Positions 2,292-17,075 of a stretch of 43,926 bases of DNA are shown piece after piece. The first letter of the stretch is position 1; each line of letters starts with the position of its first letter. The notes below the pieces were generated by a model. That model did no database searches, had not been told where the DNA came from, and saw only the letters and a list, made by a program, of their open reading frames with translations. Location: the NCBI GenBank assembly GCA_003134435.1, contig PLBE01000056.1, positions 6,008 to 49,933 on the forward strand. Reading direction: 5' to 3'. The DNA comes from Acidobacteriaceae bacterium (GTDB lineage: Bacteria > Acidobacteriota > Terriglobia > Terriglobales > Acidobacteriaceae). Made by a program: the position numbers and the translations under genes.

Positions 2292-3893
2292 ATGAACTCC
2301 AGCCCGCGAGCCACGGATCACCCAAACACGGATCGTTTGAACGCGGATCGTTCGATCGGAGATCGTTCGATCGGAAATCGTCCCAACTCGAATCGCGGTC
2401 GGTTCGATACCGCGCCCCTGCGAATCGCAACGCTGTTGCCTCTGTTCGCCGCCGCTGCGCTTTTCGAAGCTAAGAACCTCTCTGCTCTCACGGCGCTCTC
2501 CAACAGCGATGTCTGGCTGCACCTGCGTACCGGAACCTGGATGCTCCAAAACCACGCTGTGCCGCAGACCGGGCTTTTCTCACAGTCGCCGGACTTTCGC
2601 TGGACCGCCTCCACCTGGGGCTACGATCTGCTGGTTGCCGTTGCCTTCAGGATGCTGGACCTGCGTTCCATCCCGGTCCTGGTAATGATCTTCAAATCGG
2701 CGCTCGCCGTGGTCACGTATCTGCTGGCCGGTGGCGTACGCGGAAGATTTTGGACCGCAGTCGCCCTGTCGGCCACGGTGCAATACATCCTGGGCGGGGT
2801 TTTGCCCGGTCCCACCTACTGCTCCATGCTCTTGTTCGCTGTCGAATTACTCCTGCTCAACCAAAGCCGCGCAACGGATAGCGTCCGTCCACTTTTCTGG
2901 CTGCCGCCACTTTTTCTGCTCTGGGCCAATCTTGACAACCAGTTTGTGTTCGGACTCTTGCTGCTTTTGCTGTTCCTCCTGGCATCGAACATTCTCGCAT
3001 CGAACATTCCGAATCTCGCAAGTCCCCTTGGCAGTAGCTCAAAAATCCCGCTTGCTCACAGACAATCCACGCTTTCGCCCAAGAACGCGGGCGCCGTCGC
3101 CCTGCTCTGCGCCGTCGCCACCATCATTACGCCCCATTTCTACCACCTCTACGGAGTTTTTGTTGCCAGTTTCACCAGCGCCGCCAACCGTTATCTCCCG
3201 GATTTCCATGCCATGGGTTTCCGGCAACCCCAGGACTACGTTCTGATGCTGCTGGCCATGGCGGCGTTTCTCGCGCTCGGGCTGCGGCGTTCGCGCGATC
3301 CGTACCAGATTTCGCTGATGATTGGCTGCACTATGCTCTCTTTCCATGCACAGCGCGACGCTTGGCTGGTTGCGCTGGCTGCGATTGCGGTAATCGCCGG
3401 AGCGGTTGGCCATCCAACTCAAACTGCCAGCGCTGAACCCCAACACAAGCGCAACCGGCAGCTCTTCCTTGCCGCTGGAATGTCGCTTGCGATTCTGATG
3501 TTCGCGGCCGCGTTCGAAATTCCCCGCAGCCACGAAGCGCTCCTCGCCAAGGTTGCTCAAACCTATCCCGTCGGCGCCTGCGGCTACATTCGCGAACATC
3601 AACTGCCGCAGCCCTTGTTCAACGCCTATGAGTGGGGAGGGTTCCTGACCTGGTATTTGCCGGAATATCCCGTCGCCATCGACGGCCGCGCCGGCTTGTA
3701 TGATGACGACTTCGTCGTCCAATATTCCAAGGCGATGAGCGCCGATGTGCCTTACACGGCCTATCCCGCGATGGCCCAGGCGGGCACGCTGTTATTGCAG
3801 CGAAACTCGTTGATGGGGGAAGCCCTCAGCGCGGTGCCGGCGTTTCGAGTAGCCTACAGCGACCGTGTGGCCGTGGTGTTGACCAGACCTTAG
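2292..3893 (+). CDS. Polytopic membrane protein, GT-C-like, paralogue of 5507-7009
   Basis: This 533-residue protein has about ten predicted membrane segments after a polar N-terminal extension of about 40 residues. It aligns with the product of 5507-7009 through shared landmarks: NSDVWLHLRTGTW after the first membrane segment (DLDIWWHLKVGDW in the paralogue), STWGYDLL, LPPLFLLWANLDNQFVFGL, and a C-terminal soluble part with WGGFLTWYLPEYPVAIDGR and LYDDD. The topology and the acidic residue just after the first membrane helix recall GT-C glycosyltransferases that use lipid-linked sugars, but I cannot name the family. The N-terminal extension is encoded by a 15-bp tandem repeat and may be dispensable. 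No strong Shine-Dalgarno precedes the ATG. The gene converges on 3919-5514. Confidence 0.85.
   Translation: MNSSPRATDHPNTDRLNADRSIGDRSIGNRPNSNRGRFDTAPLRIATLLPLFAAAALFEAKNLSALTALSNSDVWLHLRTGTWMLQNHAVPQTGLFSQSPDFRWTASTWGYDLLVAVAFRMLDLRSIPVLVMIFKSALAVVTYLLAGGVRGRFWTAVALSATVQYILGGVLPGPTYCSMLLFAVELLLLNQSRATDSVRPLFWLPPLFLLWANLDNQFVFGLLLLLLFLLASNILASNIPNLASPLGSSSKIPLAHRQSTLSPKNAGAVALLCAVATIITPHFYHLYGVFVASFTSAANRYLPDFHAMGFRQPQDYVLMLLAMAAFLALGLRRSRDPYQISLMIGCTMLSFHAQRDAWLVALAAIAVIAGAVGHPTQTASAEPQHKRNRQLFLAAGMSLAILMFAAAFEIPRSHEALLAKVAQTYPVGACGYIREHQLPQPLFNAYEWGGFLTWYLPEYPVAIDGRAGLYDDDFVVQYSKAMSADVPYTAYPAMAQAGTLLLQRNSLMGEALSAVPAFRVAYSDRVAVVLTRP
2331..2390. repeat. 15-bp coding minisatellite, four units
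   Basis: Four consecutive 15-bp units start at 2331, 2346, 2361 and 2376. The second and third are identical (GATCGTTCGATCGGA). They encode a five-residue motif resembling D-R-S-I-G in the N-terminal extension of the membrane protein. The unit length is a multiple of three, so gain or loss of copies keeps the frame. Confidence 0.85.
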
Positions 3894-3918: not shown

Positions 3919-5514
3919 CTAAGGGCGGGTGCGGCGGAGGATGAAGTAGACCTGACGGACGTAGACCCCCTGCTTGTAAATCATGTATCCGTCGGAGACG
4001 TGCACGATTTCAAATCCTTCGGCACGGAGCGGCGGAATACCGATCTCCATCAGCACCTGTGGCTGCTCCGTAAACGCAATTACATAGTCGGGTCTCAACC
4101 GTCTGAATTCGTCTGGGTCCAGGGCGAGGCCGTAAAATGGCATGCCGTGGTGATAGTACGCGGTGGGCATGTTTACGAGGATGTTATGGTCGAAATAAGC
4201 CTGCACTCCGACGACACCATAAAGGAATCCGAATATTCGCTGTCGATCCGCCCCGACTGACTTGAGGTAGTTCGCTGCGTCACCAGCGCCGCTGTAGGGG
4301 TAGAGGTATTCATTACGAATTGCGACCTCGGCGTCCCAGATATTTAGCGCACATAGACAGAGCAGTGCGGCCCCCATGGCCTGCAACAAGCGGCGCTTGA
4401 GCGCGCTAAACCCGCGCTGCTCCCTCCAGTCGGGCCAAGCAACCCAAAGCGCGGTGATTGCCGCGACGAACAGCGTTCCATGGTGGTGCGCGGAGCCATG
4501 AATTAGACAATAGAGAGCAATCAACGACAATAGCGGCAATGCATAAATCAGCAACCTGCCCCGCAGGAAACACCACCAGCCGGCGAACAGGATGAACAGA
4601 GCCGAAGGCAGCCAGTAATCAAGAAAAGCACCTGAGATGGTTGACTCCAGCTTGACCAGCTTCGTGGGCTGCTGAGCCTGAATGGATGCGGGCAACTCCC
4701 CAAGTGCCTTCTTGACTGCAAACTCCTCAACATCCGGCGTCGGCTTCAGGATGATGCCGATGAACAGGAAGGTCAGTGCCATTACGGCGACGCAAATCTT
4801 GTAGCGCGTCTGGACTCCCTGTTCGAGAGTGCGCCAAGCGCGGATCGCTTCGATCAAATAGGCCAGCCCGAAACAGCCGGCGAGAATTGTGCCGTGCAGG
4901 CTCAAGTTCGCCAACAAGACCAATACGACCGTCAGGCGCTCGGGATGCTTGATGTCCTTGAACAGCATGGCCGCCGCGAATGCCAGCAGGGGCAGCAGAG
5001 TGTAGGGACGCGCGATCACGGCGTACTGGTAGACCATGAAATAGGTGAAGGCGAGCGGCCAGCGGATGATGCGGGGAAACGGCGCTTTGAAGATCAGCAT
5101 TGCGGCTCCGGCGGTGGCGCCGGCCATCCCGATGTAACCGAGCGCGCTATATTTCGCGTGGAAGACGTGCTGCGCCACCCACAGGATGGTGTGCCACAGG
5201 CCAGGAGAACCCTCGTAGCGCAATTCATGAAACCAGATAGTGCGCAGGCTGAGATCGCGCGCAATCAGCCAGGCCTGCGCCTCGTCGGCCCACTTCTCGT
5301 GATATTGAATGGTGAAGCTGACAACTACGATCCACAGGCCGAGCACACCGAAATCGCCAATCCGCCACCAAGGGTTAGAGGAAGCAGTGGAGGAAGGCCG
5401 AGAGACGGCGCCAGACGCGGGAGCGGCCAGATCAACCTGCACTGCGCCGGGAACTTCAAGCTGGTCAGTTCTGGTGCCCTCAGTCATGCGGTCAGTTCTG
5501 GTCCGGTCAGTCAT
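3919..5514 (-). CDS. GT-C-like membrane glycosyltransferase (GT39/GT83-type)
   Basis: This encodes 531 residues from the ATG at 5514; a longer frame reaches 5583 but would lie deep inside the upstream gene. After a polar N-terminal tail of about 60 residues, the first membrane helix is followed by HEKWADEAQAWLIARD. The Asp-Glu pair in the first extracytoplasmic loop is the expected catalytic/metal site of ArnT/PMT-type GT-C enzymes, which use polyprenyl-phosphate sugars. About ten more membrane segments and a C-terminal soluble part with PDEFRRLRPDYVI follow. The start overlaps the stop of 5507-7009 by 8 bp, so the genes are probably translationally coupled. Donor and acceptor are unknown; a surface glycan or protein target is inferred. 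Confidence 0.82.
   Translation of the reverse strand: MTDRTRTDRMTEGTRTDQLEVPGAVQVDLAAPASGAVSRPSSTASSNPWWRIGDFGVLGLWIVVVSFTIQYHEKWADEAQAWLIARDLSLRTIWFHELRYEGSPGLWHTILWVAQHVFHAKYSALGYIGMAGATAGAAMLIFKAPFPRIIRWPLAFTYFMVYQYAVIARPYTLLPLLAFAAAMLFKDIKHPERLTVVLVLLANLSLHGTILAGCFGLAYLIEAIRAWRTLEQGVQTRYKICVAVMALTFLFIGIILKPTPDVEEFAVKKALGELPASIQAQQPTKLVKLESTISGAFLDYWLPSALFILFAGWWCFLRGRLLIYALPLLSLIALYCLIHGSAHHHGTLFVAAITALWVAWPDWREQRGFSALKRRLLQAMGAALLCLCALNIWDAEVAIRNEYLYPYSGAGDAANYLKSVGADRQRIFGFLYGVVGVQAYFDHNILVNMPTAYYHHGMPFYGLALDPDEFRRLRPDYVIAFTEQPQVLMEIGIPPLRAEGFEIVHVSDGYMIYKQGVYVRQVYFILRRTRP
5461..5514. repeat. 27-bp tandem duplication at a start codon
   Basis: Two adjacent 27-bp units (5488-5514 and 5461-5487) agree at 22 of 27 positions. 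On the minus strand each begins ATGACTGA, so the duplication places two in-frame ATG codons at the start of the glycosyltransferase and overlaps the stop of the upstream gene. Confidence 0.8.
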
Positions 5515-7009
5515 GGGGCACTCGCCGCCGCGCGTATACCGTCGCAATCTCGTCGTGAAAAACAAGCTGAAAACGCGGGTCAATAGTCAAGATCTTAGCC
5601 AGGGGAAGTTGCGAATCGAGTAGCACCACCCCCGCCTCGTCGAGATAAGGATCAGTGGCATACGATTTTTCAGCGTTCTGTGAACTAAAGAAGATCCGGT
5701 CGAGATCGTCTCCGTAGAGGTCATTGCGCCCATCGATGGCCACCGGGTAATCGGGCATATACCACATCAGGAAACCGCCCCAATTGAGATTGTTGTAAAG
5801 CGGGCCGGGCACCGGATTTCGCCGCAGGAAGTTGACCGCGTTCACTGGATACTGAGCACTGATCGCCCGATCGAAACCGCGTTGGTTGAAGTCTGTTCCA
5901 CGGGAGAAGAGCGCCAGCAACACGACGACGGCCACCGCCGCTCCAGTCATCTCAAACCATGTTTCAGAGCGGTCGCGCGCCGCCTCGGGCGCGGGAAAGT
6001 CGGCAATGCAAGCCGCAGCCGGAATGCAGATGAACCAGGCATCGCGCATGGTGCGATACGCAACCACGCTCGCAATGGTAAGCAAGGCCAGCTTGAAGGG
6101 ATCGAGCTTCTTTCTCCAACCCAATTTTTGCCAACCCACGGCGAAGAATCCGGCCGCGGTGAGCAGAAGCTCCGCGTAATCGCTATACCAACGGAAGGTG
6201 AGCGGCTGCAGTTCCTGAATGACGGAATATGCGAACTTGGCTTTCGAATATTCGTAAACCGCCACATAAGGATGATAGAAGTTGGGGCCGACCACGGTTG
6301 CGAGCACACAGGCAGCAAACAAAACCAACAGACTCACAGCGGGAAGCTTGGGAGCAAGCAGGAACGCGGGAGCAATCCGCAGCGTGTTTGCCCACCTCTG
6401 CCCGAGCGATATGGCCGCCAACAGCCCTACGGGGAAGAGTCCGTAGATGAACTGGATATGCAGGTTTGCCCACAGCAGAAAAATTAGTGGCAGCCAGTAG
6501 AGTACCTGCAAACGGCCGCTGCGATTGGCCTCCAGAAGGAGGGTCAAAGTCACTGCGAACAGCACCATCGAAAAAAAGAAAGGCCGCGGCATCCCGTTAA
6601 ACAGGAACGCCGAGCAAGTCACTCCGGTCAACAGCCAGGCCAGCCAGAACTGGCCCGAAAGACGGCGAAGCATCCAGTAAATGGCGCACGCAACCGCGAG
6701 GGTGAGGAACGTTCCAAAGATTCCCATGCCGAGCAGGCCGAACCAGGCGTAGGCTCGCGACAACAGCACCTCGTATCCCCAACTGTAAGCGACCCATGGT
6801 CGATTCGCCGCAGTGCGCGACAGGATGCCGGTGTGAGGAACGGCCAGATGCTCGACGATCCAGTCGCCGACTTTGAGGTGCCACCAGATGTCGAGATCGA
6901 GCACGCAGAGCTTCAGTTGAAGGGCCATCAGCCCCACTGCGGTCATCAACCCGGCGAGAGCGCACAACTGCAGCCAGCGGACTCGCAGAAGCGCCCGCAA
7001 TTCCTGCAT
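5507..7009 (-). CDS. Polytopic membrane protein, GT-C-like, paralogue of 2292-3893
   Basis: This encodes 500 residues from the ATG at 7009; a TTG at 7045 in the same frame is an alternative start, and neither has a strong ribosome binding site. About ten membrane segments are predicted. Landmarks shared with 2292-3893 are LDIWWHLKVGDWIVEHLAVP, SWGYEVLLSRAY, LPLIFLLWANLHIQFIYGL and the C-terminal WGGFLMWYMPDYPVAIDGR with LYGDD. The two genes therefore arose by duplication, together with their upstream regulatory region. It is followed by the GT-C-like gene with an 8-bp overlap. A role in building or modifying a surface polymer is inferred from the company it keeps; no reaction can be assigned. 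Confidence 0.85.
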   Translation of the reverse strand: MQELRALLRVRWLQLCALAGLMTAVGLMALQLKLCVLDLDIWWHLKVGDWIVEHLAVPHTGILSRTAANRPWVAYSWGYEVLLSRAYAWFGLLGMGIFGTFLTLAVACAIYWMLRRLSGQFWLAWLLTGVTCSAFLFNGMPRPFFFSMVLFAVTLTLLLEANRSGRLQVLYWLPLIFLLWANLHIQFIYGLFPVGLLAAISLGQRWANTLRIAPAFLLAPKLPAVSLLVLFAACVLATVVGPNFYHPYVAVYEYSKAKFAYSVIQELQPLTFRWYSDYAELLLTAAGFFAVGWQKLGWRKKLDPFKLALLTIASVVAYRTMRDAWFICIPAAACIADFPAPEAARDRSETWFEMTGAAVAVVVLLALFSRGTDFNQRGFDRAISAQYPVNAVNFLRRNPVPGPLYNNLNWGGFLMWYMPDYPVAIDGRNDLYGDDLDRIFFSSQNAEKSYATDPYLDEAGVVLLDSQLPLAKILTIDPRFQLVFHDEIATVYARRRVPHD

Positions 7010-7229
7010 CGTGCTCAAAGTCTGAAACCTCTCGTTTCGTTGCAATCTTCGCGGCGTGCCGATTCACCGTGCGTTCAGGAAGCGAGTGTCTCGAGGATGC
7101 CCGCCGCATTCTTGGGAACCCGAATTTCTGCTTCCGTCATCTTTGCGGTCAGCAAGTCTGTCATCAAAACGCAGGCGAGCTTCGAACGTGCTCGTTCCAT
7201 GAGTCTTCATAGCAGACTAGTCGGGAGTC

Positions 7230-7863: not shown

Positions 7864-9549
7864 ATGACCACATCCGCTAAAACAGAAAAGCCCGTTCGCG
7901 GCTGGCGCTTCTGGGCGCCGCGGATCGCAGTGTCGGTCTCACTCCCCATACTGTTGCTCGGCATAGCGGAAGGAACGCTGCGCCTGTTTGGGGTGGGATA
8001 TCCGACCGGTCTTACTGTCCCCTGCACGGTACAGAGCCGACCTGCCTCTTGCTACAACCTGTTCTTCCCCGCGCCATTTTTTCCTTCGGGCATGATCAAG
8101 ACTCCGCAGGCCTATGCGATTCCGGCCGAAAAGCCACAGAGAACCTTCAGAATTTTTGTGCTCGGAGAATCCGCCGCCATGGGGGATCCCGATCCTGCCT
8201 ATGGATTCAGCCGCTATCTCGAGGTGATGCTCCGCGAACGCTTCCCTTCGATAAACTTCGAGGTCGTCAACACCGGCAGCGTCGCCATCAACTCCCACGT
8301 TCTGCTGCCGATCGCCAAGGGACTGGCGGATCAGCGACCGGACCTGTTCATCCTCTACTCGGGCAACAATGAAGTCGTCGGACCCTATGGCCCGGGGACG
8401 GCGCTCACGTCATCGGGAATGAGCCTGCCGGTGATTCGCAGCAGTATCTTCGTGCACTCCACCCGCATCGGCCAGCTTCTAACCAAGCTGGGAACACCCA
8501 AGCGGGAATGGGGCGGGATGGAGATGTTTCTTGATAAGCAAGTCCCCTCCAGTTCACCGCTCATGCGGCAGGTCTATGAGAACTTCGAAAGCAATCTGCG
8601 GGACACGATCTCCATCGCGCGCAGCTCGGGCGCGCGCGTGATCGTCGCCACGGTGGCGACGAATCTGAAAGACTGTGCCCCCTTCGCGTCATTGCACCGG
8701 GAAGGCTTGAGCCCGGAGGCTTTGCGCTCCTGGTCGACGCTGGTGCAACAGGGATCCGATCTGGAAAACAGCAGGGCATACGCGGAAGCATTGAAAATCT
8801 ATCTCTCAGCAGCCGCGGTTGACGACCAGTACGCCGAACTCGAATTCCGCATTGCCCACGCCCTCTGGATGCTTGGAGATTACCGCGCCGCCAAGGAACA
8901 TTTTTCCCGCGCTCGCGATCTCGACACGCTTCGCTTTCGCGCCGATAGCAAAATCAACGACATCAATCGCGCGGCAGCCTCGTCATTTTCGGGTGCCGAA
9001 CTGGTGGACGCCGACGCGATTTTCGCCCAGGAGAGCCCGAACGGAATCGTCGGCAGCGAACTTGTGTATGAGCACGTGCACATGACTCCTGAGGGAAACT
9101 ACATCTTGGCGCGGGCCATGTTCCTCCAGATCGCCAGCAAACTCCCTCATGAGATGGGGCAAGCCGCGTCTCAAAAGGACGATGCTTCCGACGTTCCTTC
9201 ACAAACCGAATGCGAACAACTGCTGGCGTTGACCGGTCATGACCGCCTTCGTATTACGCGGGAGATGCTGCAGCGCTTGCAGAAGCCTCCATTCACCAAT
9301 CAGCTGAATCACTCGGATCAGGTCCTGAGGTTGACCATCCAAGCGGGTGCTCCCGATGAAAGCCCGGACCAGACCGGCGCTGAGTATCAATGGGCGATCA
9401 GGAAAAGGCCGGATGACCGCATCCTGCACTACAACTTTGGACTCTTCCTGTTCGACTACGACCGCGCCGCGGCAACGGAACAGTTGCGTATGTCGCGCCC
9501 GTGGGACGGCTTCCCGGTTTTCGCTCCCGATGGCACGCCGATCGAATGA
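7864..9549 (+). CDS. SGNH/GDSL-type hydrolase or O-acyltransferase with TPR-like insert
   Basis: This encodes 561 residues from the ATG at 7864. The frame is open upstream to 7672, but that stretch is not protein-like, and the AGGAGA nearest the chosen start is rather far (21 nt). One membrane helix at about residues 20-40 would anchor a periplasmic domain. SGNH blocks are visible: FVLGESAAMGDP (block I, Ser103 as nucleophile), NTGSVAINS (block II), YSGNNEVVGPYG (block III) and EHVHMTPEGNYILA (His404/His406, block V). Between blocks III and V lies a helical TPR-like insert (about residues 300-355). SGNH proteins of this kind, like DltD and AlgX/AlgJ, work beside MBOAT proteins to load or remove O-acyl groups on surface polymers. 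It converges on the MBOAT gene, and a ligase and carrier protein follow. Confidence 0.85.
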   Translation: MTTSAKTEKPVRGWRFWAPRIAVSVSLPILLLGIAEGTLRLFGVGYPTGLTVPCTVQSRPASCYNLFFPAPFFPSGMIKTPQAYAIPAEKPQRTFRIFVLGESAAMGDPDPAYGFSRYLEVMLRERFPSINFEVVNTGSVAINSHVLLPIAKGLADQRPDLFILYSGNNEVVGPYGPGTALTSSGMSLPVIRSSIFVHSTRIGQLLTKLGTPKREWGGMEMFLDKQVPSSSPLMRQVYENFESNLRDTISIARSSGARVIVATVATNLKDCAPFASLHREGLSPEALRSWSTLVQQGSDLENSRAYAEALKIYLSAAAVDDQYAELEFRIAHALWMLGDYRAAKEHFSRARDLDTLRFRADSKINDINRAAASSFSGAELVDADAIFAQESPNGIVGSELVYEHVHMTPEGNYILARAMFLQIASKLPHEMGQAASQKDDASDVPSQTECEQLLALTGHDRLRITREMLQRLQKPPFTNQLNHSDQVLRLTIQAGAPDESPDQTGAEYQWAIRKRPDDRILHYNFGLFLFDYDRAAATEQLRMSRPWDGFPVFAPDGTPIE

Positions 9550-9566
9550 GCGGGAAGTTCTTGTGC

Positions 9567-9589
9567 AGAGTGCGGCCGGATTGCACTCT
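9567..9589. terminator. Hairpin between convergent SGNH and MBOAT genes
   Basis: A perfect 7-bp inverted repeat (AGAGTGC / GCACTCT, 9-nt loop) fills the 40-bp gap between the two convergent stop codons. It is placed to act as a bidirectional terminator. The U tract is weak on both strands, so this is inferred from position. Confidence 0.5.
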
Positions 9590-11056
9590 TCAGAAATTCC
9601 GATACATGAACTGGGCCGCATCAGCGCCGCGAGTGTGCGTCACCATCATGATGAGAAGCAACGCCAATATATAGAAAGGTGGAATCCAAAACCAGCGGTT
9701 GTTCGCGATGAGGGCGATGATCACTGAACGGGAGCGAGCGGCGTTGGCCTCGGCCTCGTCCTCAACCGAATAGCGATCGAGCGCCTCGATCGCCAACAGC
9801 ACAATCGCATATCCAGCCGCCAGAGCCGTAACCAGGACGTAAAGACTTCCGCTAAGGAAGTGGGACGAATAGCTAGCCGGTGACAGGGCGGCCGACAGCA
9901 TCTGCCGCGCCTCCAGCAGCGAATTGGCGCGGAAGAATATCCACCCCAGACTGACGAGACTCATCGTCGCCAACCGCGAGATCGCCTTCCAAAGGACGGG
10001 CGCGGGCGTCCCATTGAACTTGCGTTGCAGTTGCTGAACTTGACGATGTAAAACAAGCAGAACTCCGTGATAACAGCCCCAGAGTACAAAAAGCACGCTT
10101 GCTTTGTGCCACAACCCAAACAGTACCATCGAAATCACCAACACGAGATTTCGCCACCACACTTCGCGGCGGAGGACAGCCAGCGGCAAGAAAACATAAT
10201 CGCGAATCCAAAATGACAGCGACATGTGCCAGCGGGTCCAGAAAATCGACGCGCTCGTCGATTCAAACGGACCAACGAAATTCTCGGGCACGGTAAAGCC
10301 GAGCGCTTGCGCCGCGCCAATAGCGATGTGGGAATAGCCGGCGAAATCCATAAAAAGCTGCAACCCGTACCCGAAGGCCAGACACCAGGCATCCGTCCCG
10401 CTCCAGCGAGTCAGCCGATCGAAGCCAGAGTTGATGCCATCGCCCGCCAGGATTCCCTGCCCCAGCAACTGCGCCACCTGCATCATGAGCACGCCCGTCG
10501 CGATCCGGGCGAACCCGCGCCCGATGTCGCGCCCAAGGGTTGGACGCCCGGATCGAAATTGCGGAAGCATTTCGGGCATGCGGCAGATGGGCCCCGAGAT
10601 TACGACTGGGAAGAAGACCATGTACAGCGCAAATTCGACCAACGTCGGGTCGAGTTCCTCGCCACGGTAAAGGTCAAACAGGTAACTCATTGCCTGGAAG
10701 GTCCAGAAGGAGATTCCCAGCGGCAGGGCAAGGTGCGAGAACCTTTGCAACGAGGATAACGGGATGTTGACCGCAAGTTCCGGAAGGTACTTGAAGCTTC
10801 CCAGCAGCGCCAGGTTCAAGAGGATGCCGACCGACAGAACCCGCCCGGAAAGTTTTCGCTGAAGCCATTTCCCCAACAGAAAATTCATCGCCGTGGAGGC
10901 GAGAAGAACGATCGCGAACCAGCGCCCCCACGTGAGATAGAGCGCGTAGCCGCCGATCAGAAGCACGGCCTGTCGTACAGCTCGCGAGCGGACCTTGGCA
11001 AAGACACCCACGCCAAGCAGAAACACCGCGCCGTACAGGATTCCTCGAACCAACAT
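9590..11056 (-). CDS. MBOAT-family O-acyltransferase (AlgI/DltB-like)
   Basis: This 488-residue membrane protein has the normal length for AlgI/DltB proteins. Family landmarks are LPLGISFWTFQAMSYLFDLY (about residues 111-130), FMDFAGYSHIAIGAAQALGF (235-254), FWTRWHMSLSFWIRDYVFLP (272-291) and FGLWHKASVLFVLWGCYHG (313-331). His330 in the last motif corresponds to the catalytic histidine of MBOATs, and His317 is the second conserved one. MBOATs of this branch take an acyl group from a cytosolic donor and deliver it across the membrane to an exopolymer. A ligase and acyl carrier protein are divergently encoded 170 bp away and an SGNH protein is convergent, so the donor is plausibly an acyl-ACP, as D-Ala-DltC is for DltB. 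An AGGTGAG motif close to the ATG may serve as ribosome binding site. Confidence 0.92.
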   Translation of the reverse strand: MLVRGILYGAVFLLGVGVFAKVRSRAVRQAVLLIGGYALYLTWGRWFAIVLLASTAMNFLLGKWLQRKLSGRVLSVGILLNLALLGSFKYLPELAVNIPLSSLQRFSHLALPLGISFWTFQAMSYLFDLYRGEELDPTLVEFALYMVFFPVVISGPICRMPEMLPQFRSGRPTLGRDIGRGFARIATGVLMMQVAQLLGQGILAGDGINSGFDRLTRWSGTDAWCLAFGYGLQLFMDFAGYSHIAIGAAQALGFTVPENFVGPFESTSASIFWTRWHMSLSFWIRDYVFLPLAVLRREVWWRNLVLVISMVLFGLWHKASVLFVLWGCYHGVLLVLHRQVQQLQRKFNGTPAPVLWKAISRLATMSLVSLGWIFFRANSLLEARQMLSAALSPASYSSHFLSGSLYVLVTALAAGYAIVLLAIEALDRYSVEDEAEANAARSRSVIIALIANNRWFWIPPFYILALLLIMMVTHTRGADAAQFMYRNF

Positions 11057-11225
11057 GCCTCACCTGCGCTATCGAAACCGGATTCCGAGACCGAAACGGG
11101 CCCTTCAGAGCGAAAGGCATTATTACGTATTCGTGATCTTCTCGCATATGCTCTTGCGCATACCACCCAAGAAGCTCGGCGGTTGTGACCTGCGTCGCGG
11201 CTTTACACAACTCGCACCAGCTACA

Positions 11226-12956
11226 ATGACCGGCAGCGTGACCCAATTCCGCAATCTCATCGACGCACTCGCCGCCGCTCCCGGCGATCGTCCGTTTGTC
11301 ACCGCGTGGATCGACGAAGACGAGCGTGAGACTGTGAGTTTTGCCGAGTTTCGGGAGCGCGCCCGTTCTCAGGCAAAGGTGCTCCGCGAGCACGGTGTGA
11401 ATGCCGGCGATCGTGTCATCATCCTCATGCCGCAAAGCATTTCCGCGATGACAACCTTCATCGCGGCCATGATGCTTGGCGCCGTGCCCACCTTTCTCGC
11501 CTATCCTAATTTCAAGGTTGAGGCTTCCAAATACCGCTCCGGACTGGCGGGAGTCACGGCCAACCTCGAGGCCAAGGTGGTGGTCATCGACGAGCAATTC
11601 CCCGACGACATGCTCGGCCATGTATCTCTCTCTGAGGGAACGCTAGTGCTGCGCGCCGTCGACAACCCTGGTTCGCCTGCAGACGATGAACCGTCTCACC
11701 TGGAGATTCCTGCCGAAAGCCTCGCCTTCATTCAGCACTCGGCCGGTACAACCGGACTGCAGAAAGGCGTCGCTCTCACCCATACCGCCGTCCTGCGCCA
11801 GCTCGAACATCTCGCCCATGCTCTGAAGATCGATGGCGCGGCAGACAGGATTTACAGCTGGCTACCCCTATACCACGACATGGGATTGATTGCCTGCTTC
11901 ATGCTGCCCATGGTTTGCCACATGCCCGTCGTTATGCAGTCGCCGCTGGACTGGGTGATGCATCCGGAAACCATGTTGCAGGTCATCAGTGAGTACAGAT
12001 GCACTCTGGCCTGGATGCCGAACTTTGCTTTTCAGTTCGTTCCCCGGCGCACGCCGCGGAGCCACTGGACGCGATACGATCTCTCGTCGGCCCGCGCACT
12101 TATCAATTGTTCGGAGCCCGTCCGCTCCAGCAGTATGCTGGAATTCCACAATGCCTTCTCCGCCATTGGATTGAAAAACGGCGTCCTTCAATCTTCTTAC
12201 GCTATGGCTGAGAACGTCTTTGCCGTAACCCAATCCGACATCGATCGGCCCGAAGGTCCAGCCCGCATCTGGGCGGACGCCCAGAGGTTTCGCAGCACGC
12301 ACCAAATCGTGCCGGTAGCGAAAGACACGCCCGGCGCTCTTTCTTTCACCTCGTCAGGCCGGGTGCTCCCCGGCAATGAGATTCAAATCGGTTCCGATTC
12401 CGGCACGGGCATTTCCCTCGCCCCAGGCCACGTAGGCGAGATTCTCATCCGGGGCGACAGCCTCTTTACTGGTTACTACAACCGTCCCGACCTGACTGCC
12501 CATGCGATCATCGATGGCTGGTATCACACCGGCGACCTTGGTTTCTTCCTGGAAGATGAACTCTACGTGATCGGACGGAAGAAAGATCTCCTCATCGTTG
12601 GCGGCGAAAACCTTTATCCGCAGGATATCGAGGAGATTGTCGCCAGCCACCCGGCCATTCACGATGGCCGCTCCGTTGCCATCGGTGTGTACAACCCCGA
12701 TCTCGGGACTGAGGACATCGTCGTGGTCGCGGAAGTGGAACGCCAGGAACTCCTTGCCAATGCCCAGAACATCGAGCGCGAAATCCGCAATCAAATTGTC
12801 GAAGGCCTGGGCATCGCGGTCCGGATGATTTTCCTGAAGCCTCCGAAATGGATCGTGAAGAGCACTGCCGGCAAAGCTGCGCGGCCCGCCACCCGCGAGA
12901 AGTTATTCAAAGAACATCCGGATTTCAACCTCGAGTCTTCGAACCTCGATTCTTAG
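11226..12956 (+). CDS. Fatty-acyl-AMP ligase-like AMP-dependent synthetase (FAAL)
   Basis: This encodes 576 residues from the ATG at 11226; the upstream extension of the frame overlaps the divergent MBOAT gene and is unlikely. Adenylate-forming motifs are complete: HSAGTTGLQKG (171-181), SWLPLYHDMGL (211-221), SSYAMAEN (323-330), GWYHTGDLGF (431-440), RKKDLLIVGGENLYP (451-465) and a C-terminal Lys in KSTAGKAAR. The WLPLYHDMGL block and the length are typical of FAALs, which make acyl-adenylates and pass them to an acyl carrier protein rather than to CoA. The ACP gene begins 14 bp after the stop, and its Shine-Dalgarno overlaps the stop codon, so the two are one translational unit. The natural acid substrate cannot be read from the sequence. 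A medium-chain acyl-CoA synthetase is the alternative. Confidence 0.9.
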   Translation: MTGSVTQFRNLIDALAAAPGDRPFVTAWIDEDERETVSFAEFRERARSQAKVLREHGVNAGDRVIILMPQSISAMTTFIAAMMLGAVPTFLAYPNFKVEASKYRSGLAGVTANLEAKVVVIDEQFPDDMLGHVSLSEGTLVLRAVDNPGSPADDEPSHLEIPAESLAFIQHSAGTTGLQKGVALTHTAVLRQLEHLAHALKIDGAADRIYSWLPLYHDMGLIACFMLPMVCHMPVVMQSPLDWVMHPETMLQVISEYRCTLAWMPNFAFQFVPRRTPRSHWTRYDLSSARALINCSEPVRSSSMLEFHNAFSAIGLKNGVLQSSYAMAENVFAVTQSDIDRPEGPARIWADAQRFRSTHQIVPVAKDTPGALSFTSSGRVLPGNEIQIGSDSGTGISLAPGHVGEILIRGDSLFTGYYNRPDLTAHAIIDGWYHTGDLGFFLEDELYVIGRKKDLLIVGGENLYPQDIEEIVASHPAIHDGRSVAIGVYNPDLGTEDIVVVAEVERQELLANAQNIEREIRNQIVEGLGIAVRMIFLKPPKWIVKSTAGKAARPATREKLFKEHPDFNLESSNLDS

Positions 12957-12970
12957 GAGAGCAGATACGC

Positions 12971-13222
12971 ATGACCGCGGAAGCACAGCAGATGATTGAA
13001 CACGTCTTAAGCCTTATCCGAAAACCGGGCCTGACGATCGACGAAAACACGCCCCTGGTTTCCTCCGGCCTGATCGATTCGATGGCGCTGGTTGACCTGT
13101 TGCTGAAGCTCGAAGACCTCACCCGCATGCGCATCCCGCCCGGCAAGGTGCAACCGAAACACATGGACACGGTTGCCTTGATGTTTGCCACCGCGCAACG
13201 CGTGGGGAAACCGCGCAAGTAG
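12971..13222 (+). CDS. Acyl carrier protein partner of the FAAL
   Basis: This encodes 83 residues from the ATG at 12971. The ribosome binding site AGGAGA (12955-12960) sits 10 nt upstream and overlaps the stop of the ligase gene. The 4'-phosphopantetheine site is SSGLIDSMALVDLL with Ser37 as the attachment serine, in the DS-Met/Leu form typical of stand-alone carrier proteins. Helix I and the C-terminal helix are predicted in the normal places, and length and acidic character fit an ACP. It would be charged by the adjacent FAAL. By analogy with DltC it could then dock on the divergent MBOAT protein, although delivery to a lipid or peptide synthase outside the window cannot be excluded. Confidence 0.9.
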   Translation: MTAEAQQMIEHVLSLIRKPGLTIDENTPLVSSGLIDSMALVDLLLKLEDLTRMRIPPGKVQPKHMDTVALMFATAQRVGKPRK

Positions 13223-13230
13223 CCCGTTCA

Positions 13231-13903
13231 CTATTTGATCAGACGAAAGAGATCGCTGTAATCGTCGGTCCAGAGACGCGGTTGCTGTGGCTTAGTGTCC
13301 GGTGGAAGCATCGGTTCGAGCCCCATCGTATCCAGCAATCCAGCTCTCCGCGTCACTAATACCCAGCAATTGCTCAGCAGTGGTCCTTGGCCTTCTTCAT
13401 AACGGATGACTGAATCCGCATGAAAATAGTCCGCCGCTCCTTGCACTACCGGCAGAAGATTGATGTGCCTTCTACTGACGTGGATGGCAACGATTCCACT
13501 GGGATCAAGGTGTCGCCATTACGCTTCGAAGGCCTCCCGTGTAAGCAGGTGAACCGGTATCGCATCGCCGGAGAATGCATCGACCACCAGGACGTCGAAC
13601 CTTTGATTCTCGCCTCGCGCCGTTTCCTGTTCCAGCAATCGCCGTGCATCTCCCTGTACTGTGTCAATCCGAGCATCCGAGTCTCGGAGGTAAGTGAATA
13701 CCGGGTTCGACCCGGAGGACAGATCAATCACGGCAGGATTGATTTCGTAATATCGGAAATAATCGCCGTGCCGTCCGTAGGCGGCAAGCGTACCCGCGCC
13801 CAATCCGATGATTCCGACGCGCAGGCTTCCTTCTCCAATGCTCCTTTTTCGGGTGACTTTGCATTACCCGCCCTATCCCACTCCGCCGCCCATAGTAGGT
13901 GGT
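13231..13903 (-). pseudogene. Decayed spermidine-synthase-like methyltransferase-fold gene
   Basis: The minus strand reads as the C-terminal half of a spermidine-synthase-like protein in pieces. TTYYGRRSGIG lies in one frame near 13903-13865. A frame change follows near the TTTTT run at 13845-13849. LRVGIIGLGAGTLAAYG, YYEINPAV and FDVLVVDAFSGDAIPVHLL then read on in a second frame. A TAA at 13519-13521 interrupts that frame where the family usually has an aromatic residue (REAFEA-stop-WRHLDPSGIVAIHV). The same frame continues to WTDDYSDLF and ends at 13231. The N-terminal part, often a membrane domain in bacterial fused versions, is missing. The frameshift and nonsense codon together rule out a functional product unless they are assembly errors. 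Confidence 0.78.
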
Positions 13904-13915
13904 GCCACGCGGCCC

Positions 13916-14249
13916 ATGTTGTCGAGCGCTGCTCAAGTCGTGTTCATCGGCGAGACAACCAGAAACTTCTTCGGCGACGTCCGTTTCAGGAAGTCGCCGC
14001 AAACCGTATTCAACGGCGTTGACACCGGCCTCTACCGCACTCAGGCCGGTGGAGAAACAAAAATCGCACTCCGCCGCGATTACAATCTGCCCGTGAACAG
14101 CCCTGCAATTCTGTTCGTGGGGCGCTTCGTCGAGAAAAAAGGCTTGCGGGTCATGCGAAGTATGGTGGAACTACACCCGGACTGGACCTGGGCATTTGCC
14201 GACTGGGGACCGCTCGATCCCACCAGTTGGAATGCCGCGAACGTGCCGT
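13916..14249 (+). pseudogene. Internal fragment of a GT4-family glycosyltransferase
   Basis: About 110 residues match the middle of GT4 glycosyltransferases: AAQVVFIGETTRNFFGD, TVFNGVDTGLYR, LRRDYNLP, then AILFVGRFVEKKGL (start of the nucleotide-sugar-binding C-terminal Rossmann domain) and WGPLDPTSW. The acceptor-binding N-terminal domain and the EX7E donor site are absent. The similarity stops where the cytochrome-like gene ends on the other strand (14250), and begins where the spermidine-synthase remnant ends. It is therefore a truncated relic rather than a gene, although the frame itself remains open to 14263. Confidence 0.72.
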
Positions 14250-17075
14250 TCAGTGCCCCGTGATCGTATAGCTCGCAACCGCGACACCGCTTTGCGCAAT
14301 CCCATTTCCGGCAGCCATCGCTCGAACCACGCTGGTGGTCGAAACCGTGATGCTGCACGGGTTCGAGCACGAAGGCGACGAGGTTGAGGGGAACGACCCA
14401 TCGGTCGTGTAGTAGATCGTAACCCCGCTGGTCGCATCCGAGATGGTCACATTGACTGGCGTTGAATAGTAGGTTCCGGCGCTGGGCGAGAAGGTCGGAT
14501 TGCTCGCCGCAATCGTGTACGTCGCCACAGCTACGTTGCTTGCAGTAAAACCGCCTCCAGAAGCGATGGCCTTGAACGTGGTTGTAGCCGAAACCGGCAG
14601 CTTGCACGGATTCGAGCATGAAGTCGAGGATGTCGTTGGACCGGTTCCGTTGGTTGTGTAGTAGATCATCGCACCGCTTACCGTGTCCGAGATCGTCACC
14701 GTCTGCGTCGAATAATAGGTGCCAGACGAGGGGGAGAACGTTGGAACTGGAGCCTGGATCAGGTACGTGCCGCTGGATACCGAACTGGTGAGGTAGGCAT
14801 AGGCAGCCGTGATTGCATTGATCGTCATGTTCTGTGAAACCACAATCGGCAACGAGTACGGCGTCGATTTGGTGGTTGGAGTCGACCCGTCCGTGGTGTA
14901 GTACATCGGCAGGTTGAGAGTGTTCGACAGCTTCACCGATTGCGGCGTGCTGAACGTCGAAGGCGTTGGCGAGAAAGTGGGCGCCGGGGCCGTCGGAAGC
15001 ACGATGGAGTACGTGGCTAAAGCCACGTTGCTCTGCGGAATTCCCGCAGATGTCGCCAGCGCATTGATCGTTGTGGTGGTCGAGATGGAAATCGGTGCCG
15101 AGTAAACGAGAGAGCTTCTCGTTGGCGTTGATCCATCAGTTGTGTAATAGATCGTCGCGCCACTCATCGAGTCGGAAATGGTTACGACCTGCGGCGAATG
15201 GTATGTACTGGTTGGTGAAGGAGAGAAAATTGGTGTGGGAACCGCTGGATCTGGGGGATGCATCACGGACGCCCAATACGCCAATTGCGATTTCGTATAG
15301 GCGTGCGCGCCCGGCATGCCTGGAGGCAAGGTGAGGCCGTATGAATTTGTTTGGCCGTCGTTCCCTACGTGGCATTGGCCACAGGCGAGGTCAACGTCCT
15401 GCCACGTTGCTGGAGTGAAAGTCGTACCATCCAACGCGGAGAATTCTGGAGCCGTGCTCAGAGAACTTATGCCTTGGTTGTAAAGCTGGTCGGGCGTCGG
15501 GAATGTCCGGTAATTGGGATCAGTACTAATCCTGAACATGTGACTGCCGGCCCGCCCCAAAGCAGCTTGCATATGGCACGTGATACACGCTCCCGGGATG
15601 TCAGCAGAAGTTCCAGTTGGGAACGGAGTGCCTGGTCCCATCGGATGGTTGACCGTCGACATGATGTTGCTGGACAGCGCGTGGCATTGATCACACCGAG
15701 TCGCAATCGGTTTCGGAGCGTTCGCCGCCGCTACCGTGCTCTGGTGCGGATCGTGGCAGCCCGTGCACCCAAAATTCTTGGTCGGGTCGCCTAAGCTCTC
15801 GCTGAAATCGCTACCGTACGTGCCGGAGATGGTGACGGAGAGATCTGAAGAGTGTTGTGCGTTCTGGATCAAGGTGCCGTTAAAGCGGGCGTGTGGACTA
15901 TTGAGGAATGCTTGCCCAGCTTCGTGATCGACGTAGGGCTTGTAGATCCACTGCGAAGAATTGGCGAGACAGGTGGAATAGCTCGCCCCGGAGAGGTCGG
16001 AGCAGTATCCGTGGTCAAGCGTCTTCATCGTATTTGCCGGACTGATGCTGCCGGTAACCGGTGGATTGGCGGTTGGGTTCGCGATGGTGATGCTTTCTTC
16101 CCGGTGGCACTCCATGCATAACGCCGTTGCCGCTTCATTCTGGCGGATGGTGGCTTGCAGGCCACCCTCCGGATGCGAGCCCGAGGTCCAAGCGGCAACG
16201 TGACACCGCTCGCACTGAATCCCGGTCAAGAACCACGACGAAGTGCCGTTGGTACCGGAAGCTGCGAATCCATCCGTGGGAATTCGGCTGAACTGCGCAT
16301 CCGGAATCCAGGTAACTGTATTGTTGCTGTTCGACGTAGGCTCCGGTGCGGATTGATCAAAATTGTAGCCAGTATTGTGGCAACGCCCGCAGTCGAAATT
16401 GCCCTTCGGATACAAGTCACCGGTGAATCCGCTGTCGAAAACCGAATTCAAGTGAGTGCCAGCTGGATTAGCGGTTCCGCCGTAGTTCTCCCACCCACCG
16501 TAAAGATAAAAGAGATTTCGGAGTCCGCCCGCCGCAACTGTGGGAGCAACTGGGGTGTAGGCAGCGGGAGCGTGAGAATTGGGCAGAGTGTAGTAAGGAT
16601 ATTGGCAAGCCTGGTCGGTCGAATTCAGGCCGTTCTGCGCCGGAGTCCCGAGAGGATTACACCAGCCCAGCGTGACTTGGCCGCTGTTCCAGTTAAAAGC
16701 GCTTCCCGACCCGTAATACCCGTCGTTTGTCGAATAGCCTACGCCGTCGGGACCGCTCCAAAGAACAGTGGGGGCGATCTTGCGGAGGCTATTCTTATGC
16801 CCCGTCATCAGGTAGGGTAGCGTGTCGGTCCCGAAGTGACAGCTCAAACATTGGTTCACGTCGGAATAGCGCGTCGTCCAACCACCGGCGGCATTATTGG
16901 CGGCTCCATCCCCGTGATACACCTGGCCGGTTCCGTTCGGCTCATAGGTGAGATTGTCTTCTGGGGCACATCCCTGACTCAGGTAGCACTGCGAATACAG
17001 ATTCAGCGGATAGAGGGCAACAATTGCCAGGATAATAAGTGCGATAGACCTTGCTCCAACCGATTTCGCCGTCAT
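14250..17075 (-). CDS. Octaheme c-type cytochrome-like protein with four chitobiase-type C-terminal repeats
   Basis: This encodes 941 residues. A signal peptide (about residues 8-29) is followed by eight CxxCH heme-binding motifs: CLSCH (76), CGRCH (229), CERCH (288), CMECH (320), CTGCH (437), CDQCH (461), CITCH (497) and CGQCH (565). These predict covalent c-type heme attachment in the periplasm or outside the cell. From about residue 612 there are four tandem repeats of about 80 residues, each with a TFSP start, an IYYTTDGS core and an ATYTI end. This is the pattern of the chitobiase/beta-hexosaminidase C-terminal domain, a beta-sandwich often found in adhesive or carbohydrate-associated proteins. 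The cytochrome part resembles multiheme electron carriers; an enzyme activity cannot be assigned. No maturation or partner redox genes are nearby. Confidence 0.9.
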   Translation of the reverse strand: MTAKSVGARSIALIILAIVALYPLNLYSQCYLSQGCAPEDNLTYEPNGTGQVYHGDGAANNAAGGWTTRYSDVNQCLSCHFGTDTLPYLMTGHKNSLRKIAPTVLWSGPDGVGYSTNDGYYGSGSAFNWNSGQVTLGWCNPLGTPAQNGLNSTDQACQYPYYTLPNSHAPAAYTPVAPTVAAGGLRNLFYLYGGWENYGGTANPAGTHLNSVFDSGFTGDLYPKGNFDCGRCHNTGYNFDQSAPEPTSNSNNTVTWIPDAQFSRIPTDGFAASGTNGTSSWFLTGIQCERCHVAAWTSGSHPEGGLQATIRQNEAATALCMECHREESITIANPTANPPVTGSISPANTMKTLDHGYCSDLSGASYSTCLANSSQWIYKPYVDHEAGQAFLNSPHARFNGTLIQNAQHSSDLSVTISGTYGSDFSESLGDPTKNFGCTGCHDPHQSTVAAANAPKPIATRCDQCHALSSNIMSTVNHPMGPGTPFPTGTSADIPGACITCHMQAALGRAGSHMFRISTDPNYRTFPTPDQLYNQGISSLSTAPEFSALDGTTFTPATWQDVDLACGQCHVGNDGQTNSYGLTLPPGMPGAHAYTKSQLAYWASVMHPPDPAVPTPIFSPSPTSTYHSPQVVTISDSMSGATIYYTTDGSTPTRSSLVYSAPISISTTTTINALATSAGIPQSNVALATYSIVLPTAPAPTFSPTPSTFSTPQSVKLSNTLNLPMYYTTDGSTPTTKSTPYSLPIVVSQNMTINAITAAYAYLTSSVSSGTYLIQAPVPTFSPSSGTYYSTQTVTISDTVSGAMIYYTTNGTGPTTSSTSCSNPCKLPVSATTTFKAIASGGGFTASNVAVATYTIAASNPTFSPSAGTYYSTPVNVTISDATSGVTIYYTTDGSFPSTSSPSCSNPCSITVSTTSVVRAMAAGNGIAQSGVAVASYTITGH

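Follow-up and report, generated by a model that had tools for sequence, protein, structure and literature searches.

A probable carrier-protein-dependent MBOAT-SGNH gene set for envelope acylation, with apparently exchangeable acid-loading enzymes, in Acidobacteriota

The stretch of DNA analyzed here (the window) comprises 43,926 nucleotides from an Acidobacteriaceae bacterium (GCA_003134435.1, contig PLBE01000056.1, positions 6,008-49,933 of the forward strand); positions below are those of the window. Between positions 7864 and 13222 it carries genes for an SGNH protein, a membrane acyltransferase of the MBOAT family, a ligase of the fatty-acyl-AMP ligase (FAAL) type and an acyl carrier protein (ACP), whose possible joint role is our subject. 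Loci and genomes used for comparison bear working labels (L or G plus a number). The features of the set are as follows:

7864-9549, + strand: SGNH protein with one N-terminal membrane anchor and a TPR-like insert
9590-11056, - strand: MBOAT membrane acyltransferase, 488 aa (PF03062)
9593-9610, - strand: C-terminal FMYRNF of the MBOAT, an FxYxxF acyl-shuttle hexapeptide (by alignment and from excerpts of PMC12148441)
11057-11225, no strand: intergenic stretch of about 170 bp between the divergent MBOAT and FAAL genes (from the open reading frame layout), presumed to be their shared promoter region
11226-12956, + strand: FAAL-type enzyme (by PDB matches, NCBIfam and an extra segment)
12971-13222, + strand: ACP, 83 aa (by a weak Pfam PP-binding match, NCBIfam and motif)

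Because the strands differ (SGNH +, MBOAT -, FAAL and ACP +), the four genes do not form one operon: the MBOAT and SGNH genes converge, and the MBOAT and FAAL genes diverge. The FAAL gene most likely starts at ATG 11226 and not at its first open codon, 10995, since the methionine is kept in the close relatives L063, L064, L066 and L086 and in L065 a stop codon immediately precedes it. The ACP starts at ATG 12971, 14 bases past the stop codon of the FAAL gene, which an AGGAG stretch overlaps; a longer open reading frame from 12848 is unlikely because M or V sits at the equivalent of 12971 in most relatives. The original prediction had described the ACP as translationally tied to the ligase. Tight spacing in the window agrees with this, whereas true 4-base stop/start overlaps occur only in relatives, between FAAL and ACP in L083 and between the ACP and an E2 gene (introduced below) in L044.

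The ligase scores 190.2 bits against the AMP-binding family PF00501. Its first coenzyme A (CoA) ligase among PDB matches ranks below 18 rows that include 3pbk (a fatty acyl-adenylate ligase), FadD32, FadD28 and FadD23, the remainder including synthase-named entries. DltA was not seen among the best 60 of 210 PDB matches, nor among the best 25 of 108 NCBIfam families. Furthermore, 48 residues separate YAMAE from GRVLPG in this protein versus 18 in the genome's own CoA ligases (the four of seven that have both anchors; in relatives the pattern often missed the second anchor), and an extra segment after the YxxxE motif is what we take to mark FAALs. By sequence the ligase is therefore nearest to FAALs and carries their extra segment. 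It is the sole FAAL-like match of its genome, the next match standing at 3.4e-24. The ACP matches its families weakly, with 18.8 bits for the Pfam PP-binding domain (cut-off 20.8) and 20.7 bits for DltC, its best NCBIfam match (cut-off 68). The motif places the predicted phosphopantetheine serine at S37 (codon 13079-13081), and the attachment-site D-S is present in 35/35 distinct ACP rows (script patterns scored 33 and 34, but the rows they missed, either one-letter variants or a shortened row, show D-S by eye).

The MBOAT, the only PF03062 match of its genome (68.4 bits, cut-off 27), finds DltB structures only in the PDB, and its best NCBIfam match is likewise DltB (TIGR04091), at 171.3 bits against a cut-off of 375. 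H277, H317, Y485 and F488 are invariant in 50/50 aligned rows (rows under 400 aa, L047, L085 and L091, were excluded, and two contigs are present twice, L043/L077 and L044/L081). The protein ends in FMYRNF, the first position of which varies among F, L and M within the window's own lineage, so that it has both the conserved histidine and the C-terminal FxYxxF by which MBOAT-SGNH envelope acyltransferases are recognized. In excerpts of a 2025 paper, PatA is described as acetylating the tyrosine of its own C-terminal FxYxxF, a motif that DltX also bears (PMC12148441).

The SGNH protein has the membrane anchor, serine and histidine expected of an MBOAT partner: hydropathy gives a single N-terminal membrane segment at residues 16-34, and S103, E403 and H406 are invariant in 21/21 aligned rows. 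A TPR insert lies at about residues 310-380, though each Pfam TPR score is under its cut-off. A profile search with the SGNH alignment against the PDB returned matches confined to the TPR part; therefore, the SGNH assignment rests on motifs and on a predicted model built from 21 sequences (mean pLDDT 72.6, pTM 0.73, part of it low-confidence). In a Foldseek comparison the model matched SGNH esterases best (3mil, 7ddy, 4iyj), with PatB of Neisseria and Campylobacter (7trr/7tjb/8tlb) at ranks 15, 22, 31 and 37, and neither Pfam nor NCBIfam gave a DltD match. The analysis thus bears out the four families named in the original prediction, together with its description of the ligase as FAAL-type and not D-alanine-specific, of the MBOAT as having both conserved histidines (H277 and H317) and of the SGNH protein as membrane-anchored with a TPR-like insert. 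A second SGNH-TPR homologue in the same genome (L094:7189-11742, 45%, in an 842 aa frame) adjoins a carbamoyltransferase, with no MBOAT match in that stretch.

The set recurs in relatives. A contig scan gave 32 loci, 31 of them from Acidobacteriota, and genome searches added further loci; after seven same-contig duplicates were dropped, 31 distinct loci with an MBOAT orthologue of at least 53% identity were counted, an ACP being scored as present within 7 kb of the MBOAT. The ACP stands beside the MBOAT in 26/27 loci whose contigs reach far enough (L072, L079, L085 and L091 end too soon), L092 being the sole miss with full flanks. A FAAL is present in 25/28 (missing in L074, L081 and L092; L079, L085 and L091 are cut by the contig) and an SGNH protein of some type in 27/28 (missing in L092; L071, L072 and L079 are cut). 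Co-occurrence of the four families in relatives, proposed beforehand as a check, was thus found. In L077, L078, L080 and L083 the order FAAL-ACP-SGNH-MBOAT lies on a single strand with short gaps. The SGNH partners fall into at least five sequence types, and therefore a function appears to be kept and not one gene; the type of L045 exceeds the GDSL_2 cut-off, and two types without a Pfam match (clusters 10 and 32) were called from a GDS plus late histidine motif.

When 150 genomes of the order were searched, nine gave a FAAL match at 1e-60. Besides the window's genome, the FAAL adjoins an MBOAT in four of the other eight (G099, G064, G042 and G028). G081, G107 and G119 have the match in frames of 717-3235 aa that share only 31-34% identity; the MBOAT matches do not lie on these contigs, and G012 lacks an MBOAT match at 1e-20. 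Of 12 plasmid records with FAAL relatives, the four inspected have no MBOAT among their annotated genes, annotation in that collection being incomplete. As for a polyketide synthase (PKS) or nonribosomal peptide synthetase (NRPS) linked to the ligase-ACP pair, a further point raised beforehand, none was present among neighbors typed by Pfam, which are only part of the neighbors.

Other families occupy the place of the FAAL in some relatives. Seven loci (L088, L104, L105, L106, L107, L108 and L109) combine MBOAT and SGNH genes with an NRPS-type adenylation domain (A-domain), which reached 336 and 327 bits against TIGR01733 (cut-off 317.4) in the two scored, L088 and L104, and matches in two pieces in L108. 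An ACP lies beside the A-domain in six of the seven; in L107, 4 kb and a change of strand separate the MBOAT and SGNH genes. Both the A-domain type and the FAAL set occur in G252 and G231. In L046 (G117), the 3' end of a gene for an LnmK-family protein (TIGR04098, 122.7 bits, cut-off 100) overlaps the ACP start; the protein matches LnmK in the PDB across its second half, and its Y75 falls opposite LnmK Y62, presumably the catalytic residue, only in a non-significant piece. In G090 (L044/L081, one contig), a pyruvate-dehydrogenase-like E1-E2 pair replaces the FAAL in the row E1-E2-ACP-SGNH-MBOAT, where E1/E2, E2/ACP and SGNH/MBOAT each share a 4-base stop/start overlap. The best FAAL matches in G090 (2.2e-20) and G117 (2.1e-24) are at the level of CoA ligases in the window's genome, and in the tree the MBOATs of G090 and of the FAAL-bearing L083 are sisters (support 100/99). 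The E1-E2 and LnmK replacements are each known from one genome. Precedents for both exist: in the excerpts consulted, QncN/QncL/QncM put a glycolic unit on a peptide via an ACP (PMC6335953), and LnmK is a bifunctional acyltransferase-decarboxylase working with the free ACP LnmL (PMC9570651).

We suspected that the E1-E2 pair might belong to ordinary central metabolism, and no MBOAT match adjoins any of four related pairs (L099-L102). Downstream of the pair in L099, L100 and L101 is a protein that combines a 4'-phosphopantetheinyl transferase domain with an N-terminus resembling an ACP (judged by eye; Pfam gave no match) and a hydrophobic C-terminus; it is perhaps a self-activating carrier. On a Cupriavidus plasmid (L117:10430-13617), pyruvate dehydrogenase E1 alpha, E1 beta, E2 and an ACP stand in a row with a FAAL-like match nearby. 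The phosphopantetheinyl transferase in three of the four pairs and the Cupriavidus row favor carrier loading. Among the A-domain loci, a sulfotransferase gene lies between MBOAT and SGNH genes (L088:11753-12619), and another locus has three sulfotransferase-like matches near its A-domain (L180:4109-6850).

A further carrier-linked cassette emerged when 74 additional MBOAT sites of the order (60 newly fetched, a subset of those found, and 14 earlier) were searched for an ACP within 5 kb by hidden Markov model in two rounds, the second including first-round matches. An ACP was present at 14/74: one was L059 (FAAL-ACP-SGNH-MBOAT, G028), and the other 13 form one syntenic set, MBOAT-SGNH-SGNH-ACP-KAS III (β-ketoacyl-ACP synthase III). 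In L056, Pfam identified the MBOAT, both SGNH proteins and KAS III; the proteins of L056 served as tblastn queries to type the other 12. Each of the 13 MBOATs has a C-terminal FxYxxF, and the 13 KAS III proteins all keep HQAN and GN and have serine at what we take, from the motif, to be the place of the catalytic cysteine. DpsC, as excerpted in PMC12664062, is a KAS III with a Ser-His-Asp triad that self-acylates and hands the acyl group to its ACP; since the proteins found here retain the FabH-type histidine and asparagine, their likeness to DpsC is partial. At 60/74 places no ACP lay within 5 kb, and most MBOAT genes examined in the order thus seem to be carrier-free.

A tree of 53 MBOAT rows was built after removal of eight duplicates (seven repeated contigs and L089), the truncated L072, L079, L085 and L091, and a single row that contained a stop or fell short of 330 aa. 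A 38-row group (96/92) unites the FAAL-, A-domain-, LnmK- and E1-E2-linked MBOATs with L074 and L092, and a loader or ACP is in reach for 37 of its rows. L056, the only one of the 13 KAS III-linked MBOATs in the tree, stands apart from this group on a long, weakly supported branch, which suggests that the linkage of MBOATs to carriers may have arisen more than once.

We consider it probable that these genes encode a carrier-protein-dependent MBOAT-SGNH pathway for envelope acylation. Given that the MBOAT ends in FMYRNF, a route can be written from ligase to ACP, MBOAT tyrosine, SGNH serine and surface acceptor, and it is from the parts above that we infer each transfer step, the acid and the acceptor. 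The FAAL would make an acyl-adenylate and load the acyl group on the phosphopantetheine of its dedicated ACP, which would dock at the inner face of the MBOAT. H317 would then drive acyl transfer to Y485 in the MBOAT's own FMYRNF shuttle, and on the outer side S103 of the membrane-anchored SGNH protein would take the acyl group from the acyl-tyrosine and pass it to a surface polymer or glycolipid. This is the logic of Dlt, with a fatty-acyl or other carboxylic acid putatively replacing D-alanine and with the shuttle of DltX built into the MBOAT, as it is in PatA. The ligase-ACP-MBOAT-SGNH chain, which the original prediction had drawn, finds support in the recurrence of the set, in the one-strand compact forms of some relatives, in the FxYxxF motif and catalytic residues of the MBOAT and in the replacement of the ligase by other ACP-loading families, and the earlier reading as a whole is partly supported.

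With Dlt (DltABCDX) the set shares an adenylating ligase, a dedicated carrier, an MBOAT, an SGNH protein and the FxYxxF tyrosine shuttle. It differs in having a FAAL-type enzyme in place of the D-alanine ligase, a shuttle that is the MBOAT's own C-terminus, an SGNH protein unmatched to DltD and a host in the Acidobacteriota. FAAL-ACP pairs also occur in lipopeptide and polyketide pathways, where a FAAL-type ligase likewise adjoins a small ACP; in the window, however, the ACP stands with a membrane acyltransferase, and no PKS or NRPS was among the neighbors typed. Similarly, LnmK, QncN/QncL and DpsC represent the families of alternative loaders found in relatives, but their known ACPs feed a polyketide or peptide synthase and not an MBOAT. 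PatA/PatB, the peptidoglycan O-acetylation system, and similar MBOAT-SGNH pairs resemble the set in combining an MBOAT that has a C-terminal FxYxxF with a membrane-anchored SGNH protein, but PatA draws directly on acetyl-CoA (PMC12148441, in excerpt), whereas the window encodes a carrier and a loader beside the MBOAT.

Several observations weigh against a carrier-fed pathway. The top NCBIfam match of the ligase is PRK07768, a long-chain-fatty-acid-CoA ligase subfamily (328.8 bits), with the FAAL subfamily second (317.2), and every family shown scores under its cut-off; the SGNH protein also stays under the Pfam cut-offs (NonGDSL 19.3 bits, GDSL_2 17.9 bits). The FAAL and MBOAT genes are transcribed divergently in the window. 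L092 has an MBOAT orthologue without any partner in 10 kb of both flanks; L074 has ACP and SGNH genes and no FAAL, the same assembly having a FAAL at L083; and L107 lacks an ACP for about 10 kb around its A-domain, extra flank included. The set is patchy, with an MBOAT match at 1e-20 in 14/24 genomes from the genus, of which several are incomplete, and L059 and L103 sit on long tree branches where placement is unsure. Some of these points, namely the divergent genes, the solitary MBOAT of L092 and the missing ACP of L107, would also fit an MBOAT-SGNH pair that uses acetyl-CoA as PatA/PatB do, with the FAAL-ACP pair a neighbor serving another pathway (lipid or secondary metabolite), as would the direct use of acetyl-CoA by PatA, the FAAL matches in long frames elsewhere and the carrier-free majority of MBOAT places. 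We regard this as quite unlikely, because the ACP is kept in nearly all orthologue loci, one-strand forms and the SGNH/MBOAT overlap of L044 tie the genes together, and other loader families replace the FAAL while ACP-SGNH-MBOAT stays.

Alternatively, the SGNH protein may be a surface esterase that removes acyl groups and not the last transferase. Its best Foldseek matches are esterases, PatB appearing first at rank 15, though the model is partly low-confidence. However, a membrane-anchored SGNH protein stands beside the MBOAT in 27/28 loci despite its changing sequence type, and excerpts of PMC12148441 present DltD and PatB as transferases downstream of their MBOATs; an esterase is thus unlikely. 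A true Dlt system esterifying D-alanine would account for the shared part list and for the best matches of the MBOAT (DltB) and ACP (DltC), but the ligase and MBOAT fail the family tests for Dlt (DltA is absent from the matches shown, and DltB reaches less than half its cut-off) and DltD is unmatched. The set would therefore work like Dlt without being Dlt, and D-alanylation proper, rejected on ligase matches and family scores, is hardly credible.

The exchange of loaders suggests, with rather less assurance than the carrier-fed pathway itself, that Dlt is one example of a modular platform for MBOAT-SGNH acylation that depends on a carrier. An ACP-SGNH-MBOAT core would, in Terriglobales-type Acidobacteriota, be fed by at least five interchangeable loaders (FAAL, NRPS-type A-domain, LnmK-type decarboxylating acyltransferase, pyruvate-dehydrogenase-like E1-E2 and Ser-type KAS III), placing many acids on the surface, probably short or functionalized as well as fatty. 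Dlt has been described as an MBOAT-SGNH pathway fed by a carrier and the others as fed by acyl-CoA, the carrier being said to be missing outside Dlt (PMC12148441, in excerpt); the cassettes found here would be exceptions to that statement. Among the entries listed (20 of 36 in one case), the open-access literature searched yielded no paper on a FAAL/ACP with MBOAT/SGNH set; either nothing matched, or the titles concerned Dlt, PatAB, the SGNH family or unrelated matters. In sum, a conserved gene set of a soil bacterium probably loads an acid onto a carrier, hands it through the membrane and decorates the cell's own surface, using a loading enzyme that differs from that of the D-alanine system of Gram-positives and is apparently exchangeable. 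If so, carrier feeding is present in other lineages with other acids, and unforeseen cell-surface esters are to be expected in soil and peat bacteria. Loader exchange on one core would offer a ready test of MBOAT substrate acceptance and a route to choosing the acyl group on a bacterial surface.

Three genes for membrane proteins lie upstream of the set and are given as context:

2292-3893, + strand: homologue of the 5507-7045 protein (by sequence match)
3919-5583, - strand: polytopic membrane protein without a Pfam match
5507-7045, - strand: membrane protein of the glycosyltransferase C (GT-C) fold (by structure comparison with OST/STT3, DPY19 and ArnT; model pLDDT 72.6)

The GT-C-like character earlier ascribed to this region holds for the 5507-7045 protein by structure and, through homology, for that at 2292-3893; the 3919-5583 protein gave no Pfam match. 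The 5507-7045 protein adjoins the set in part of the relatives and counts as context, not core; in many loci the flanking sequence retrieved shows none of these genes. Its predicted fold would make a surface glycan or glycoprotein a sensible acceptor of the acyl group.

Downstream of the ACP, 13234-13903 (-) is a remnant of a 772-aa protein (residues 550-772) whose frame stands open beside the ACP in L064, where it has no Pfam match. Long frames also occur in L063 and L070, the window copy being shortened and split between frames, and a piece of it weakly matches spermidine synthase (36 bits, cut-off 40). A short open reading frame at 13808-14263 (+), with a glycosyltransferase-like stretch by eye and no Pfam match, overlaps the remnant on the opposite strand. 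It is followed at 14250-17075 (-) by a 941-aa protein with eight CxxCH haem motifs and, by eye, long C-terminal repeats. Finally, a gene of the methylmalonyl-CoA mutase family lies a few kb from the set in L068, L070, L075, L084 and L087 (called by Pfam in L068 and by clustering in the other four), which hints at a link between the two.

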